Origin: a virus
Direction: 5' to 3' (one strand)
Virus record (IMG/VR): IMGVR_UViG_3300020428_000102
Location: 1-22,396 of that record
Length of the DNA stretch: 22,396 bases
A program made the translations under genes and the position numbers. Positions 4,263-22,396 of the stretch are shown piece by piece. Positions within the stretch are counted from its first letter, which is position 1; every line of letters starts with the position of its first letter. Below the pieces are notes generated by a model that was not told the DNA's origin, made no database searches, and worked only from the letters and a program-made list of their open reading frames with translations.

Positions 4263-5113
4263 TGAAATCATTAAAAACTCCACTTCGTTATCCAGGTGGT
4301 AAGTCACGTGCAATTACAAAGATTAGTCCTTGTTTTCCTAATCTAAAGGAATGCAAGGAATTTAGAGAACCGTTCCTAGGGGGTGGTTCTGTTTCTTTGT
4401 ATGTCACTAAAGCCTTTCCACACTTAACTATTTGGGTTAATGATCTTTACACACCGCTTACGAACTTTTGGCAACAACTTCAGAAAAACCCTGACGAGAT
4501 TACGAAAGAACTTACGGGACTCAAAGGTCGATACGACACACCCGAACGAGCGAGACACTTGTTTGCTGAATGCAAGGAATGTCTTAATCATACTAACAGT
4601 GGGAAGAGTTCTAGGGCCGTTAGTTTTTATATCGTTAACAAGTGCTCATTTTCTGGACTTTCGGAATCTAGTTCCTTCAGTGCTCAAGCCTCAGAATCCA
4701 ATTTCTCAATGCGAGGAATTGAAAAGTTGCCAGGATACTCAGAATTAATTAAAGACTGGATCATAACAAACCAATCTTACGAAAAGTTATTATGTAATGA
4801 CTGGGATAGTAAAGGTCATTTTGTGTACATGGATCCACCATATGATATCAAAGATAATCTATATGGTAAGAAAGGTGACATGCATAAAAGATTTGACCAT
4901 GACCAGTTTGCAAAGGACTGTGATGAGTATAAGTCTCCAATGTTAATATCTTATAATTGTGACCAATTGATAAAGGATAGATTTTCTGAGTGGAATGTGG
5001 TAGAGTATGACCATACATATACTATGAGATCTACCGCATCTTACGGTAAGGATCAAAGAGAACGTAAAGAGTTACTACTATTGAACTATGACTGTCGAAA
5101 AACTTTGGGATGA
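4262..5113 (+). CDS. dam: D12-class adenine-N6 DNA methyltransferase (Dam-like)
   Basis: A 283-aa alpha-group methyltransferase that would transfer a methyl group from S-adenosylmethionine to adenine. Motif X is PLRYPGGKSR (7-16), motif I is FREPFLGGGSV (34-44), and the catalytic motif IV is DPPY (191-194) in FVYMDPPYD. The family commonly methylates GATC, but the target cannot be read from sequence alone. The first half (about 4380-4640) uses CGA, ACG and CCC codons more than the second half, hinting at mosaic origin. It lies in the cargo block, so it is probably accessory, protecting phage DNA or marking it for replication. Its 3' end overlaps the next gene by 26 nt. Confidence 0.9.
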   Translation: MKSLKTPLRYPGGKSRAITKISPCFPNLKECKEFREPFLGGGSVSLYVTKAFPHLTIWVNDLYTPLTNFWQQLQKNPDEITKELTGLKGRYDTPERARHLFAECKECLNHTNSGKSSRAVSFYIVNKCSFSGLSESSSFSAQASESNFSMRGIEKLPGYSELIKDWIITNQSYEKLLCNDWDSKGHFVYMDPPYDIKDNLYGKKGDMHKRFDHDQFAKDCDEYKSPMLISYNCDQLIKDRFSEWNVVEYDHTYTMRSTASYGKDQRERKELLLLNYDCRKTLG

Positions 5114-5324: not shown

Positions 5325-5665
5325 TGGCAATTTATCATGATGCTGAGATTAGAATTAATCTCAATGAACTTGTACAAACTAGATCTAACTACTTGTTTAG
5401 AAGTAGTAAAGTTAGTACAAACCTTAGTGAAAAAGATATAGATTGCTTGTCTTCAAGTCTCCCATCAAAGTTAACATGGGATGCTTTGTATGGTATGGTA
5501 GACAGTGCTATCTTTGAGTATCTTGATGAAGCAGATACACACTACGGTGAAAGAACTATTGAAACCATTGAGGTAACAAGGGAACAAGAATTTAAAAAGA
5601 ATTTTAAAATGGTTAAACTAGAATCATCTGCATGGACAATCGAAGTACCTTTGAGGAAGAAGTAA
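5324..5665 (+). CDS. Hypothetical protein (113 aa)
   Basis: Begins and ends in TAATG overlaps. The sequence is a mixed alpha/beta soluble protein: a strand-like start (YHDAEIRINLNELV), a helical middle (KLTWDALYGMVDSAIFEYLDEA) and a strand-like end (WTIEVPLRKK). No recognised motif. Position directly before the heme oxygenase, with stop and start fused, suggests co-translation with it. Confidence 0.6.
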   Translation: MAIYHDAEIRINLNELVQTRSNYLFRSSKVSTNLSEKDIDCLSSSLPSKLTWDALYGMVDSAIFEYLDEADTHYGERTIETIEVTREQEFKKNFKMVKLESSAWTIEVPLRKK

Positions 5666-6318
5666 TGCTGGCACAAGAGTTAAAAGAAGGAACAAAGAAA
5701 TCACATTCTCTGGCAGAGAACACATCTTTTGTGAAAGGATTTCTTAGAGGTACTCTTAGTGAGTATAACTATGTGGTGCTACTTTCTAATTTCTATTACA
5801 TATACAGGGCATTAGAAGAAGAGGTAGGAGTTCATAATAAAAATTCTAAAGTTGGTTCTATAAATTTTGAAGAACTTAAAAGGGTTCCATCTATTGTAAA
5901 AGATTTAAAATATTTTATAGGTCCAGACTGGGCTAATAGAGTTGTACTTACTGATGCAACAGAAAGATATATTCAACGTATCAGGGAAGTATCTAAGGAC
6001 AGTCCATACTTATTGCTAGGACATCATTACACAAGATACTTAGGTGATCTATCTGGTGGTCAGATACTTAAAGGTATTGCAAAGAAGTCATTGAAGTTAG
6101 GAGATGAAGGACTTGCTTTCTATGAGTTTGATAAGATAGATGATAATAAAGTATTTAAAGAAAGGTATAGATCAGTATTGAATAGTATAGATCTAACAGA
6201 ATCTGAAAAGAATGCTATAATAGTTGAGGCAAACTATGCTTTCAGATTAAACATGTATATGTTTCAAGAGTTTGAAGGTAATGTATTCAAAATTATTTGG
6301 AATTTAATACGTGGATAG
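5665..6318 (+). CDS. ho1: Heme oxygenase (ferredoxin-dependent HO-1 type)
   Basis: A 217-aa all-helical heme oxygenase that would open heme to biliverdin IX-alpha, releasing CO and iron. Biliverdin is the precursor of phycobilin light-harvesting pigments in cyanobacteria. The proximal heme ligand is His14 in GTKKSHSLAEN. The distal helix signature is YTRYLGDLSGGQIL (122-135) with the flexible GDLSGG stretch. Length is close to cyanobacterial HO-1. ATG 5665 is chosen because it gives the canonical N-terminus, has a purine-rich ribosome site (GAGGAAGAAG) and forms a TAATG overlap; an upstream in-frame ATG at 5632 is less likely. ho1 is known in cyanophages such as P-SSM2, but no pebS or pcyA is seen here. 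Confidence 0.93.
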   Translation: MLAQELKEGTKKSHSLAENTSFVKGFLRGTLSEYNYVVLLSNFYYIYRALEEEVGVHNKNSKVGSINFEELKRVPSIVKDLKYFIGPDWANRVVLTDATERYIQRIREVSKDSPYLLLGHHYTRYLGDLSGGQILKGIAKKSLKLGDEGLAFYEFDKIDDNKVFKERYRSVLNSIDLTESEKNAIIVEANYAFRLNMYMFQEFEGNVFKIIWNLIRG

Positions 6319-6757
6319 TGTAGGTAAGGTTGGTAAATGGATATATGATGTATTGAGCCAACCCAGTAGGGTCTTTGGTGATCTACCACCATGTCCATTT
6401 GCTAAGAAGTCTTGGGATGACGGTGGTATTGATGTTCTAGATTTTAGATCTTGGGATGATGTTGAAGAACATTTAGATATACTACAGGACGTTATGATCT
6501 TTATGATGGAGGATATATCGTCAGAAGAACTCGTAGAAAGAGCACGTTACTTTAATAATAAATACTCACACCTAGTATTCTTAGAGGAACACCCTGACCT
6601 CGTAGAAGAATTTGATGGTGTGACAGTAAACTCTGGTTATACTATGCTTATTGTTCAAGACAGGAAGCATCTTGTAGATTCAAGAAAGTTATTAGAGGAT
6701 ACTGATTACTATTATCATTGGTCACCTAAACTTAAACAACGTATCCTTGACAGATGA
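6311..6757 (+). CDS. Conserved protein with LPPCPFAKK motif, function unknown (148 aa)
   Basis: A GTG start at 6311 overlaps the end of the heme oxygenase gene; the protein ends in an ATGA overlap with the first amidinotransferase. The N-terminus carries a short signature, SRVFGDLPPCPFAKKSW, with the only Cys in the protein, followed by an acidic alpha/beta body. From memory, proteins with this signature occur in marine bacteria and phages, sometimes beside amidinotransferase-like genes, but I know no demonstrated activity. Its stop/start coupling to the amidinotransferase pair suggests a shared pathway. The single conserved-looking Cys could be catalytic or a tether. Confidence 0.7.
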   Translation: MDSVGKVGKWIYDVLSQPSRVFGDLPPCPFAKKSWDDGGIDVLDFRSWDDVEEHLDILQDVMIFMMEDISSEELVERARYFNNKYSHLVFLEEHPDLVEEFDGVTVNSGYTMLIVQDRKHLVDSRKLLEDTDYYYHWSPKLKQRILDR

Positions 6758-8184
6758 ACAAGTATAACTATTGGGCTCCTTGGCATAAACTAAAGACTAC
6801 TATACTTGGCAAGTTTTATTCTCCTGAATTTTTTGAGAACGTAGAGAATGACCTTATAAGATCTAACCTACAAAGAATTGCAGAGGAAACAGAAGAAGAT
6901 TTATTAAACTATAAGTCAGTACTAGAAAGTGCTGGTGTACGTGTTATAAGACCATACCTAGATCCTAATGATAGGATAGAAAGATACTTACAAGATGGTA
7001 TGGTTAATAATATTAATCCCTTTGGTCGTGTAAGGACTGTACCTAGAGCACCTTTACAACCAAGGGATTTTGCTTTGGTTGTGAATGGAAAATTACATAT
7101 TACACATGGAGATCATGCTGGATTGTTTGATCTAGTAGATGAATATAATAAAGAGGATCAGGTTATCTTAGATTGGGAGATAGATTCATTACCTGAAGAT
7201 AAGAAAGATAAACTTTATAGGAAGTATTATAATACTAGAAAGACAAGGGATTGGCCTTCTTTTGAAGATATACACACTGCTGATATATCTAAGATGGATC
7301 CTATGACTCAAATGGAAGTAGGATACTTTAGAAAATATGCTAGACAGTCTATGGTACACATGGTTAAAGCACCTTGTGTCACAATAGTTGGAAAAGATAT
7401 GATTGTTGAGGGTGCATTGTTTGATCAAGATAAGTTTAAGGACATAAATTGGGGATATAATCCAAGGTACAATCTCATTAACATAGGTGGTCATGCTGAT
7501 GGATGTTATCGTCCTATAAAGGAAGGTGCTATCGTATCAATATTCCCACCATCAAAATATAAATCTACTTATCCTAAGTGGGACGTTTGTGAATTATATA
7601 ATACAGGTAAACATACAGATATTATTAAACAATTCTACAAGTGGCGTGGTGCTATAGGTGGTAGGTGGTATGTTGATGGTGAGATTAACCATCAGTTTAT
7701 TGATTTTGTTGAGAACTATTTGACTGATTTTGTTGGGTTCACTGTTGAGACTGACTTTGATGTTAACTGTATATCATTAGATGATAAGAATATATTAGTA
7801 TCAGGTCTTACTGATAAGGTAAGTGATTTCTTTAAGAAGCATAAGGTAGAACCTACATTAGTTCCATTCAGACATAGACATTTTCATGATGGTGGACTGC
7901 ATTGTGTTACCTTGGATCTATACCGTGAAGGTGACATGGTGGACTATTGGCCAAATGAAAAAAATAATATAGAAGATTCTGATGGTAATGTTCATTTAAG
8001 TACAGGTAACAAATATAGAAGAAGAGGATTTGGTGATCAAACTACTTTGGATGAAAGTGTAGAGGAATATAATTTTAAAAATGAAGAGGCACGTGAGAAG
8101 TTTGAACTTGAAAAAGAATTGAGGAGGATTGAAAAAGAAGGTGGTGGTCAAAAATTACAATCTAGAGGACAGTGGTGGACATGA
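6754..8184 (+). CDS. Amidinotransferase-family enzyme, paralog 1 (476 aa)
   Basis: A member of the guanidino-group-modifying superfamily (arginine:glycine amidinotransferase / arginine deiminase fold). The N-terminus is WAPWHKLKTTILGKFY, like the family opening. Candidate catalytic residues are His247 and Asp249 in GGHADG and the nucleophile Cys384 in HDGGLHCVTLDL; VEGALFD (218-224) is a further family landmark. Such enzymes move an amidino group from arginine to an amine or hydrolyse arginine; the substrate here is unknown. About 60 residues at the C-terminus form a charged, likely helical extension absent from paralog 2. It overlaps the second copy by ATGA. Cyanophages are known to carry amidinotransferase-like genes, but two in tandem is notable. 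Confidence 0.85.
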   Translation: MNKYNYWAPWHKLKTTILGKFYSPEFFENVENDLIRSNLQRIAEETEEDLLNYKSVLESAGVRVIRPYLDPNDRIERYLQDGMVNNINPFGRVRTVPRAPLQPRDFALVVNGKLHITHGDHAGLFDLVDEYNKEDQVILDWEIDSLPEDKKDKLYRKYYNTRKTRDWPSFEDIHTADISKMDPMTQMEVGYFRKYARQSMVHMVKAPCVTIVGKDMIVEGALFDQDKFKDINWGYNPRYNLINIGGHADGCYRPIKEGAIVSIFPPSKYKSTYPKWDVCELYNTGKHTDIIKQFYKWRGAIGGRWYVDGEINHQFIDFVENYLTDFVGFTVETDFDVNCISLDDKNILVSGLTDKVSDFFKKHKVEPTLVPFRHRHFHDGGLHCVTLDLYREGDMVDYWPNEKNNIEDSDGNVHLSTGNKYRRRGFGDQTTLDESVEEYNFKNEEAREKFELEKELRRIEKEGGGQKLQSRGQWWT

Positions 8185-9476
8185 TGCAAGGTAAGTACAA
8201 TCAGTGGTCACCTTGGGGCAAGTTAAAGACTTGTATGTTAGGTAGTTTTTATCCACCAGAATTCTTTAATGCTATTAAGGAAGATAATATACGTACATGT
8301 ATGCAACGTATATCAGAAGAAACATTAGAAGACATAGAAAATTTCCATAAGGTATTACTTGACTTTGGTGTGGATGTACATAAGACTCAGACCAATCCTA
8401 ATGATAGTATAGACAGATATATTATTGATGGTGAAGTTAATTATATTAATCCATTTGGTAGAGTACGTACAGTACCTAGACCACCATTACAATGTAGAGA
8501 TAGTGCAAGAGTTATTGGTGATAAACTGTATATAACTCATGGAGATCATGCAGACATATTCAGAGTTCTTGATAATTATAATAAAAAAGATCAGGTCATA
8601 TTAGATTTTGAATTAGATAATTTAGATCAGGAACAAAAGGATAAACTATATGAGGTTTATTACTATACAAGAAGGACTAAAGATTGGCCACCGTTAGAAG
8701 AAATAGATTCTGATATATCACATCTAGATTCTATGACTCAGATGGAGATTGAATATTTTAGAAAGTATGCTAGACAATCTATGGTGCATCTTTTAAAAGC
8801 ACCATGCATGACTTTAGTAGGAAAGGATCTATACCTAGAGGGTGCATTGTTTGACTTGGTTGAGTTTAAGAATATAGATTTTGGTACAGACCTTAGATTT
8901 AATATTGTTAACATGGGTGGTCATGCTGATGGATGTTTTGCACCACTTAAACCTGGTGCTTTGATGGTAGTACAGGACACATCATTATATAAAGAGTCTT
9001 TCCCTAACTGGGATATATGCCATCTACCTAATACTAGTAAGAGTTCTGATTTGGCAGCATTTTTTCGTGATTCAAAAGCATGGGTAGGTGGTAGGTGGTA
9101 TATTGATGGTAAGATTAATCCTGAGTTCATTGCCTTTGTGGATAAGTATATGGTAGAATGTACTGGGTTTACAATGGAAACTAACTTTGATGTAAATTGT
9201 TTAGTCCTAGATGAGAACCATGTAGTTGTTTCTAATTTGATACCAAAGGTAGCAGAGTTCTTTAAGAAACATAAGATAGAACCAATCGTTGTTCCATTCA
9301 GGCATAGACATTTTCATGATGGTGGACTACACTGTATTACGTTAGACTTGTACCGTGAAGAAGACAAGGTAGACTACTTCCCAGAAAGAACTTCTGATGT
9401 TGCGATTACAGCGTCAGATGGAAAAATTAGAAGAGGATTCAAATGGAACTTAAACAATGGTTATCATGGAACTTAA
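8181..9476 (+). CDS. Amidinotransferase-family enzyme, paralog 2 (431 aa)
   Basis: A clear paralog of the preceding gene, similar along nearly its whole length: WSPWGKLKTCMLGSFY at the start, INPFGRVRTVPR, YARQSMVH, GGHADGCF, and an almost identical active-site block FRHRHFHDGGLHC. The nucleotide sequence of that block is also highly similar, so the duplication is not ancient or has been homogenised. The His/Asp and Cys candidate catalytic residues are retained, so both copies look functional. ATG 8181 is in an ATGA overlap; upstream GTG codons are unlikely. The 3' end runs into a duplicated copy of the gp62 start, so its last few codons are probably derived from gp62 sequence in another frame. 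Confidence 0.85.
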   Translation: MMQGKYNQWSPWGKLKTCMLGSFYPPEFFNAIKEDNIRTCMQRISEETLEDIENFHKVLLDFGVDVHKTQTNPNDSIDRYIIDGEVNYINPFGRVRTVPRPPLQCRDSARVIGDKLYITHGDHADIFRVLDNYNKKDQVILDFELDNLDQEQKDKLYEVYYYTRRTKDWPPLEEIDSDISHLDSMTQMEIEYFRKYARQSMVHLLKAPCMTLVGKDLYLEGALFDLVEFKNIDFGTDLRFNIVNMGGHADGCFAPLKPGALMVVQDTSLYKESFPNWDICHLPNTSKSSDLAAFFRDSKAWVGGRWYIDGKINPEFIAFVDKYMVECTGFTMETNFDVNCLVLDENHVVVSNLIPKVAEFFKKHKIEPIVVPFRHRHFHDGGLHCITLDLYREEDKVDYFPERTSDVAITASDGKIRRGFKWNLNNGYHGT

Positions 9477-20012: not shown

Positions 20013-20311
20013 ATAAATTATTAGAGCATCTGATCATCGCATACTCCTTTGATAGGAAGAAGGTTGAGCGTTTGCCTAATGAGATTGAGAACTTTTCCAG
20101 ATTCTTTGTTGAATTTGGATCACCTATCTCAGAAGATAAGTATAAATATAATCAATACACTACGCTTGGACTAGCGTTTATTCGTCAACACCGCAACGAA
20201 ATCTACAGAAGAATCCGTGAAGCAGTTCGATCAGTTCATAACAGAAGCAAGAATAACACGAGCTTCAACTCAGGCAAAACGCATCGGTCTCGTAGGAGAC
20301 GGGCATGGTGA
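20009..20311 (+). CDS. Hypothetical protein with basic C-terminal tail (100 aa)
   Basis: ATG 20009 overlaps the lipoprotein stop as ATGA, so it is preferred to the in-frame start at 20000. The N-terminal 70 residues look like a folded helical protein (NKLLEHLIIAYSFDRKKVERL, FSRFFVEF, LGLAFIRQHRNEIYRRI). The last 30 residues are basic and disordered (ending in SRRRRAW) and are encoded entirely in the region that overlaps the next gene in another frame. No family recognised. Confidence 0.65.
   Translation: MNKLLEHLIIAYSFDRKKVERLPNEIENFSRFFVEFGSPISEDKYKYNQYTTLGLAFIRQHRNEIYRRIREAVRSVHNRSKNNTSFNSGKTHRSRRRRAW
20141..20148 (+). promoter_or_regulatory. Putative late promoter -10 (TATAAATA)
   Basis: An exact match to the T4 late consensus TATAAATA, within the 20009 gene and 68 nt upstream of the GTG start of the structural gene at 20217. 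It encodes ordinary residues (KYKY), so chance is possible, but its context before a likely virion gene supports it. Confidence 0.4.
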
Positions 20312-21107
20312 TTGGTATGACCGCCAAGGTCAACTAAAAGCCAAGACTATTCGTGGCGAACTTAAAATGTTCGATGCGAAATCTGCTGCTAAAGATGAAG
20401 ATGAACGTGAGAAAAATTCACAGACATTAGCGTCACGTAGTGGTTCTAGTGCTACTGCTAACCCTACTGCTGGTGGTGCAGGTCAGGTAAAACCAGATGT
20501 AGATAGGATGGGACGTGCTCTATCTAACTTCCAAGCAAAACAACAATTCGATCAGGCAGCAAGAGACGAACCATTAACAGTTGCTTTTGATAAATTTGAT
20601 GATGACGTAGTAGGTGATAATATAATAGCAACAGCAGCACAGACATCAGAAGAATTCTATATTTTCCCTTCTAGGGATGCTGATATCAAACGTTTGAAGG
20701 AAGCACACCCAGATTTACAAGAAGCAATAATAGATGATGCTAATGCTGAAACAATTTATGATGTTCTACAATCAATATATGAGAATGGTTATAACTCTTT
20801 GAACATAGTAGTAAGACAGTCTAGAGCACAGGAGATTGCTAAGTTAGCACTGGAACAGAATGGTAAGTTATATAATTATGTCATGCTTAACGTAATACCA
20901 GTTGACGAAAGGACTTTGAGAGAACAATATGTGTCAGGTGACTTGTTCAAGGTAGGTACATTTGTTGAATCTAGTGATATTGTTGGTAAGATTATAAGAC
21001 GTGGTGCTAACCATTTGATATGTGTTGATGAGAATGCACGTATGTTTAGGACATGGATAACTGAGTGTACGGAAGTGGGTAAGTTTAATCTTGGAGTAGA
21101 TTTCTAA
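20217..21107 (+). CDS. Probable virion structural protein (296 aa)
   Basis: A GTG start gives the N-terminus MKQFDQFITEA, of the MKxFxxFxxEA type that opens many T4-like cyanophage head-associated proteins. The I-T-E/A within it fits the [LI]xE cleavage pattern of the prohead protease gp21. A low-complexity Ser/Ala/Gly linker (about 68-90) precedes an alpha/beta domain (EEFYIFPSRDADIKRLKE, LNIVVRQSRAQEIAKL). The C-terminus has an SH3-like end, FKVGTFVESSDIVGKIIRRG followed by NHLICVDENARMFRTW, seen repeatedly in cyanophage structural proteins. The first 95 nt overlap the preceding gene. Role in the virion is inferred, not shown. Confidence 0.7.
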   Translation: MKQFDQFITEARITRASTQAKRIGLVGDGHGDWYDRQGQLKAKTIRGELKMFDAKSAAKDEDEREKNSQTLASRSGSSATANPTAGGAGQVKPDVDRMGRALSNFQAKQQFDQAARDEPLTVAFDKFDDDVVGDNIIATAAQTSEEFYIFPSRDADIKRLKEAHPDLQEAIIDDANAETIYDVLQSIYENGYNSLNIVVRQSRAQEIAKLALEQNGKLYNYVMLNVIPVDERTLREQYVSGDLFKVGTFVESSDIVGKIIRRGANHLICVDENARMFRTWITECTEVGKFNLGVDF

Positions 21108-21137: not shown

Positions 21138-22283
21138 ATGGGAATCTGGAATCAGACATTTGATGATCTACGTAAGCCTTACTTAGAAGGTAAAGATCAG
21201 GAAAAGAAATCTAAACGCTGGCAAGATGATGACGGTGATGGGAAGTGGTATGAAAAAAGTGATGTAGATGGTAAGATCTCTGACAGAGAAAAGAAAGAGA
21301 AGAAGAAAAACTCAAAAAAGAATGAAGCGTATACTGTTACTAACGCTGATAAAAAAGGTAATACTAAAGCATACCAAGGATTTGTTGCAGGTATGAAGAG
21401 TAAGGTGACAGGTAAGCCAATGTATAAGGCTGCTGATCACATGAAGACTGAGCATCATTCAAAGGACTGTGATGATACTTGTGAACCAAAGTGTGAGCAT
21501 GACCAAGAAGTAAAGGAAGCATCACTAGAAACAGCACGTAAGAATATAGGTAAGGATCCCAAGAAGGCATCTTGTTGGGATGGATACAAAGCAACTGGAA
21601 CTAAGATGAAAGGTGGTAAATCAGTACCTGATTGTAAGAAAGAAGATGTTGAAGTTGTAAATGAATTAAGTAAGAATACTTTAGGTGGTTATGTTAAGAA
21701 GGCAAGTAAAGAAACCAGAATGAACGTGGTGTCAACACAGCATGGATCTGGTATACCCAAGAAAGCAAGAGATATAAAACAAAGGCAGATCAGTAAAAGA
21801 CTGAAGGGTATGGAGAAGGCAGGTGAGAAGTTGGCGAAAGAAGATGTTGAATTGATAGATGAAAGAGGACGTGATGACAGTACTACTCTAGGTGATAGAG
21901 CACTAAGTAAAGCAAAACGTCTAGGTCAGAAGAGGAGAAATTCTAAAGAATATAAGCAAGGATTGAGACGTGGTACTGGTGCAAAGGAGTATGCTAACTA
22001 CAAACTAGCAAGAAAGCAGCATAGTAATGATGCATCAAGTGAGAATCAGATGAGTAGATCTAAACCTCAACGTGGTGAAGGTAACAAAGCAAAGAGAAGA
22101 GCTGGTGAGAAGGTAAGAAATACTAGAAATGACAGAGTAGTTAGTGACCGCAACGGATTCAGGGTAGTACGTGGTGAGCATCTTGATTGGAGAGCTGATC
22201 TAGGTTACCTTACGGAAAAATCTGAATGTGATAGTGGAGATAAGAAAGTAAAAAAGCAAAAAAGGGAAAGCACAAGTTCGTAA
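21138..22283 (+). CDS. Lysine-rich modular virion protein, zero-frame product (381 aa)
   Basis: A strongly basic, low-complexity protein likely to belong to the virion. Visible modules are RWQDDDGDGKWYEKSDVDGK (28-46) with DxDxDG calcium-loop-like repeats; a His/Cys cluster at 101-121 (Cys111, 115, 119; His106, 107, 121) that could bind metal; a CWDGYKATGTKMKGGK segment (146-161) that I recall from other cyanophage structural proteins; and repeated EDVEVVNE/EDVELIDE linkers. LIDE and YLTE fit prohead-protease cleavage sites. The zero frame ends at TAA 22281, just after a slippery heptamer, and the -1 frame carries on to the window edge. The longer fusion may be the functional product. Confidence 0.75.
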   Translation: MGIWNQTFDDLRKPYLEGKDQEKKSKRWQDDDGDGKWYEKSDVDGKISDREKKEKKKNSKKNEAYTVTNADKKGNTKAYQGFVAGMKSKVTGKPMYKAADHMKTEHHSKDCDDTCEPKCEHDQEVKEASLETARKNIGKDPKKASCWDGYKATGTKMKGGKSVPDCKKEDVEVVNELSKNTLGGYVKKASKETRMNVVSTQHGSGIPKKARDIKQRQISKRLKGMEKAGEKLAKEDVELIDERGRDDSTTLGDRALSKAKRLGQKRRNSKEYKQGLRRGTGAKEYANYKLARKQHSNDASSENQMSRSKPQRGEGNKAKRRAGEKVRNTRNDRVVSDRNGFRVVRGEHLDWRADLGYLTEKSECDSGDKKVKKQKRESTSS

Positions 22284-22293
22284 CTGTTTTCCC
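22250..22293 (+). promoter_or_regulatory. Candidate programmed -1 ribosomal frameshift signal
   Basis: In the zero frame the codons AAA and AAG (22251-22256) preceded by A form the heptamer A_AAA_AAG, the same as in E. coli dnaX. After a 7-nt spacer (22257-22263), GGGAAAGCA (22264-22272) pairs with TGTTTTCCC (22285-22293) as a 9-bp stem with one G-U and a 12-nt loop. The zero-frame stop (22281) lies in the loop. Heptamer, spacer and stem match the standard layout of a -1 frameshift site. Confidence 0.65.
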
Positions 22294-22396
22294 AGACGTT
22301 AAAACTGAAGAGAAGCTACTAGATAAACGTGCCAAAGCAAATGACAAAGACTATCCTAAGACTCTTAATGTAGAAGGATCTGCATACGGTATTACC
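22256..22396 (+). CDS. -1 frame continuation of the lysine-rich virion protein (partial)
   Basis: After slippage the -1 frame reads 47 residues to the window edge without a stop: AKKGKHKFVTVFPDVKTEEK, then LLDKRAKANDKDYPKTLNVE, then GSAYGIT. It has coding character (ordered mix of charged and hydrophobic residues, preferred codons). In this frame a stop lies at 22241-22243, and no ATG, GTG or TTG follows before the window end, so it cannot be an independent gene within view. It is therefore either reached by frameshifting or separated from its parent gene by a one-base error in an A-run. The true end lies outside the window. Confidence 0.65.

Follow-up and report, generated by a model that had tools for sequence, protein, structure and literature searches.

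A programmed -1 ribosomal frameshift of the dnaX type is, in our judgement, the best explanation (with a probability of roughly 0.87, judged from sequence comparison) for a junction between two reading frames in a modular, lysine-rich gene of a marine cyanophage. The gene lies on a 22,396-nt sequence, which is the whole of its IMG/VR record and is called the window here. An earlier note on this DNA had proposed such a frameshift from the window's letters, and its proposal gains support from three related contigs, from independent junctions elsewhere in the gene family and from a site that is widespread in T4-like cyanophages. The anatomy and phase of the signal, the absence of a start codon, a coding -1 frame, conservation in relatives and the same architecture elsewhere in the family can be read directly from the DNA; six positions in the family carry -1 frameshift signals. 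This would add a widespread and apparently undescribed gene family of abundant ocean viruses to the phage genes with programmed frameshifting.

A candidate slippage signal at the window junction

All features described here lie on the plus strand. The zero-frame ORF (21138-22283) encodes the short form, a modular lysine-rich protein of 381 residues, and ends at a TAA (22281-22283). The -1 frame, whose preceding stop is at 22241-22243, is open from 22244 to 22396, where it is cut because the IMG/VR record ends; its 50 codons include no ATG, GTG or TTG. Within the overlap of the two frames a heptamer of the X_XXY_YYZ type used in bacterial programmed -1 frameshifting, A_AAA_AAG, stands in phase at 22250-22256, and a 7-nt spacer (22257-22263), inside the literature range of 5-8 nt (PMC4066793), separates it from a predicted stem-loop (22264-22293). 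The arms of this stem (22264-22272 and 22285-22293) form 9 bp, including one G-U, at a predicted -11 kcal/mol, and its 12-nt loop contains the zero-frame stop. The earlier note had described these frames, the heptamer, the spacer and the stem at the same positions, and we arrive at the same anatomy; absent from it was a Shine-Dalgarno-like GGAG at 22236-22239, 10 nt 5′ of the heptamer, an element which is frequent, though not obligatory, at bacterial-type sites.

The earlier note also judged the combined signal unlikely to be due to chance. For the heptamer alone, the chance of finding it in the overlap is between 0.03 (codon order shuffled) and 0.12 (same amino acids, codons shuffled), so that it is weak evidence in so A-rich a gene. 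The chance of a GGAG at the observed spacing is 0.025 and that of an equally stable 37-nt stretch about 0.04, these figures all being simple shuffles or background counts for the window site alone. When a 44-nt stretch with the stem was shuffled, 3 of 200 versions were equally stable (z -2.7), and longer stretches including the stem were unexceptional (z -1.1 and 0.1); a search of Rfam gave no significant match. An internal negative control is provided by a second in-phase A_AAA_AAG at 21314-21320, where the fold is weak, the 22 nt upstream contain no GGAG or GAGG and the -1 frame closes after one codon. Taken on its own, the window site is suggestive.

The exact junction is known in four sequences from three lineages: the window, two further IMG/VR contigs (L001 and L002) and the single-cell record MH319730 (L162); a composite junction query returned these known relatives and no others. 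Aligning homologs was the check proposed in the earlier note, and the three relatives do retain the heptamer, the phase change and the stem, together with the GGAG and the spacer. The sole change inside the signal is GTA to GCA at 22249, directly 5′ of the heptamer, a substitution that spares the heptamer itself and does not alter the residue read in the -1 frame. Sequencing error is ruled out by the identical junction in independent records. The -1 frame of L162 stays open through at least 426 codons, has no start codon in the first 53 past the slip, and gives matches to DUF6321 (E 1e-21) and to PHROGs (down to 1e-47). The modules downstream of the junction differ between the window and L162, and L001 lacks a stretch found in L162; the frame is the same in all. 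The zero-frame ORF has dN below dS against both L001 and L162, and downstream of the junction the differences are too few for a dN/dS estimate; since the stem is invariant among the relatives, it is unsuited to a covariation test. Internal modules amounting to about 320 nt, present in L162 and in the window (within 21138-22283), are missing from L001 and L002, with the frame kept.

Related junctions in the gene family and in cyanophage genomes

In the loci fetched for the family, in-phase A_AAA_AAG occurs at start-less -1 junctions at four further positions of related modular, lysine-rich proteins, which we call sites B, C, D and E. At site B (L203, L204, L205, L211 and L202, the last on the same contig as L120) the heptamer is immediately 5′ of a TAG, with GGAGG 16 nt upstream in all members; site C (L004, L005, L219, L221 and L222) reads A_AAA_AAG-ACC-TAA, with GGGAGG 13 nt upstream. 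Both are conserved across diverged relatives. Site E (L017) has a stem of -18.8 kcal/mol beginning 5 nt past the heptamer. The two members of site D (L220:5069, on the same contig as L177, and L223:5022) have unrelated modules upstream but share the same unit of A_AAA_AAG, stop and GCCCAATT stem, together with the module that comes next. Rough Nei-Gojobori estimates, made on shuffled modules, give dN below dS for the -1 frame at sites B, C and D. L040, which encodes another related modular protein, may have a -1 site of a different type, G_GGA_AAG (4497-4503), where its frames meet with no start codon.

A heptamer near the stop was found in 8 of the 13 ORFs with a start-less -1 extension of at least 100 codons and in 12 of the 746 others, counts which include related sequences and are not independent events. 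This rules out, for the family as a whole, the chance heptamer that is possible at the window alone. Seven of the 12 are real sites with short extensions (in P-HM1, Syn1, S-CAM3, Sf-FR1 and three contigs). Rejected as sites were L189, a chance heptamer that is absent from the relatives and is followed by a gene with a start of its own, and L148, L158, L212, L021 and L066, where the -1 frame closes in 4-9 codons.

At the site that is widespread in T4-like cyanophages, cultured and uncultured (L193:6294, L194:6267, L195:6534, L196:6255, L345:4085 and L226-L305) the zero frame ends ...EKK-stop and the -1 frame reads V..VEVMPE.... A search pattern of heptamer-stop, any gap and then GARRTNATGCCNGA matched at least 120 IMG/VR stretches. 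Among the matches listed, the -1 frame was kept in 79 of 80, with gaps of 11, 14, 17, 20 or 23 nt; the one out-of-frame match among them, L245, was taken as chance. In loci fetched without regard to the heptamer, an in-phase A_AAA_AAG precedes all 13 of these motifs, and no case of an in-frame fusion was seen. GGAG or GAGG was present 5-20 nt upstream in 67 of 72 unique contexts among the matches listed, against 10% in the control, with the GGAG mostly 8-12 nt from the heptamer. The folding energy of the 45 nt downstream is -11.95 kcal/mol, whereas control positions give -6.06 kcal/mol. Of the 13 consensus pairs of the stem in the VEVMPD subgroup, 6 have two-sided, compensatory changes; the consensus stems of the other subgroups show little or no covariation.

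Twelve of the 14 isolate genomes read directly carry the widespread site (S-PM2, P-HM1, P-HM2, MED4-213, Syn1, S-RIM44, S-CAM1, S-CAM3, S-H9-2, Sf-FP1, Sf-FR1 and Sf-CH11), a proportion that is not a survey fraction because the isolates were found largely through similarity to site-carrying sequences. The two without it are S-CAM4 and ACG-2014j; in other isolates, S-ShM2 and P-SSM7 among them, ordinary separate genes take its place. In S-CAM4 and ACG-2014j (L381 and L382) relatives of the gene lack the heptamer, and the ATG of the next gene overlaps the stop; these relatives may show how the site was gained or lost.

Competing explanations

The junction could be nothing more than a broken gene, in which a one-base indel in an A-run has split a modular ORF and left its downstream part untranslated or decaying. 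Frame breaks at A-runs are what indels are expected to produce, and the window lineage offers few downstream differences by which to judge. Furthermore, L170, L176 and L180 encode a comparable module without a frame break (by eye): the window's frameshift product, DWRADLGYLTEKSECDSGDKKVKK-AKKGKHKFVTVFPDVKTEE, resembles the one-frame module SNWREEF...EKKVSEKKGIKNKIIINPKLGEAVEE of L180. An indel in an ancestor is therefore the probable origin, and the break was probably then kept. The earlier note would have taken homologs that encode the same protein in one frame, with no heptamer, as refuting its proposal; the one-frame module of some phages corresponds to this only loosely, and all the close relatives of the junction that were found keep both the frame change and the heptamer. 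Decay does not sit well with the fact that three lineages share the identical break and that their -1 frame stays open, for up to 426 codons, into different modules. Nor does it sit well with our scan of the family loci, in which the genuine-looking start-less junctions were all -1, with the heptamer in slippery phase, and none of the +1 kind had the heptamer in phase. Sites B and C and the widespread site have, in addition, persisted among diverged phages together with their GGAG and their structure. We consider decay unlikely, since it leaves the joint conservation of the parts of the signal unexplained.

The same protein would result if RNA polymerase added a base in the A-runs at 22250-22255 or 22258-22263, reframing part of the mRNA, and the presence of two A6 runs within the overlap is compatible with this. 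However, bacterial transcriptional slippage usually needs runs longer than the 6-7 A seen here: a homopolymer of about nine or more A or T would be expected, and the overlap has A6 runs only. Slippage by the polymerase would not require the phase of the heptamer, the GGAG or the stem, yet these recur across the family, and we regard it as quite improbable.

Reinitiation, in which the downstream frame would be a separate gene read from an internal codon past the zero-frame stop, is the least probable of these alternatives. It is the reading adopted by annotators, who in S-PM2 make the two halves p142 and p143, with p143 starting from a GTG, and who annotate the extension as a separate gene in P-HM1, Syn1 and others (in MED4-213 and Sf-FP1 it has no annotation at all); an ATG does lie within VEVMPE. 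But the start-less codons of the window and of L162 offer no place to reinitiate, the residues ahead of the inner ATG are conserved at the widespread site, and reinitiation would not require the near-constant frame across gaps of variable length. If the frameshift reading is right, what annotators treat as two genes in S-PM2, P-HM1, Syn1 and others would in each case be one recoded gene, with a predicted junction in S-PM2 of ...EETEKK/VKKPVIEVMPEIDD....

Proposed mechanism, known systems and the gene locus

We propose that most ribosomes stay in the zero frame and stop at 22281 to give the 381-residue protein, and that a fraction would be held at A_AAA_AAG, from behind by pairing of the GGAG with 16S rRNA and from in front by the stem-loop. 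Both lysine tRNAs would then slip back one base, and translation would go on in the -1 frame through further modules, to give a long product of at least 420 residues in the window and at least 744 in L162. Slippage itself, its efficiency, the roles of the GGAG and the stem and the use of both forms are what we infer from the pattern of the sequences, and the likeliest use of two forms would be a set ratio of short to extended modular phage protein. A single partial Prochlorococcus genome contains one tRNA-Lys, with anticodon UUU, and none with CUU; a sole tRNA-Lys is, according to the main recoding review (PMC5009743), the situation that makes A_AAA_AAG so slippery in Escherichia coli. More tentatively, T4-like cyanophages could be shuffling modules together with ready-made -1 cassettes (GGAG, A_AAA_AAG, stop and stem), in which case the order of the modules and the proportion of short to extended product would co-evolve. 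The unit shared by L220 and L223 and the six signal-bearing positions of the family suggest this reading; we hold it to be possible, with the odds somewhat against it.

The mechanism is a known one, while the gene family, its breadth and its several sites appear to be new. A close likeness is to E. coli dnaX (tau/gamma), which also has A_AAA_AAG, an upstream Shine-Dalgarno-like element and a downstream stem-loop (PMC5009743); the genes are unrelated, and in dnaX the frameshift yields the short product whereas in the cyanophages it would yield the long one. IS911 and its relatives similarly combine an A-rich heptamer, an upstream GGAG and a downstream stem-loop, and there too the frameshift joins two ORFs into a longer product (PMC4066793), but those are transposase genes and no transposase feature was seen in the modular cyanophage gene. 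In lambda, also a double-stranded DNA tailed phage, the tail assembly chaperone G/GT likewise gains a C-terminal extension through a -1 frameshift close to the 3′ end of its gene (PMC5009743), though at another locus and in another protein family. Finally, frameshifting in csoS2 of alpha-carboxysomes produces a short and a long version of a protein that lies within a capsid-like shell (PMC5009743); csoS2 is a bacterial gene whose short form is the frameshift product, and we see a resemblance only. Like the earlier note, which knew of no described frameshift in such genes, we found no report of frameshifting in them, or in cyanophages at large, in the open-access literature. The available parts of the recoding review and of the PRFect paper (PMC10274946) make no mention of cyanophages, and two cyanophage genome papers that we checked make none of frameshifting. 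The PRFect paper cites a study of T4-like phages, the title of which suggests that their tail chaperones use another mechanism.

The proteins of the family are mosaics of short lysine-rich modules, which recur in reshuffled order in many marine phage ORFs, and the window's zero-frame ORF has no match in Pfam. Its upstream neighbour (20217-21107) belongs to a cytidyltransferase-like family (phrog_395, E 6e-24). The same neighbourhood is found in P-HM1, Syn1 and S-PM2, the isolate locus lying between the cytidyltransferase-like gene and gp61/nrdA. By its position the gene is not a tail-chaperone G/GT gene, since it follows the cytidyltransferase-like gene instead of lying between the genes for tail tube and tape measure. 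The label of putative virion protein comes from annotation, that of a module relative in S-SCSM1 as a virion protein and that of neighbouring genes in Sf-FS3. With the site present in cultured phages, the function of these modular lysine-rich proteins becomes testable.

Elsewhere in the window, the adjacent ORFs at 6754-8184 and 8172-9476, which we take to be amidinotransferase-like, have translations that look mutually paralogous, and the ORF at 5632-6318, presumably heme-oxygenase-like, has 49% identity to a gene of a Prochlorococcus single-cell genome (L346).
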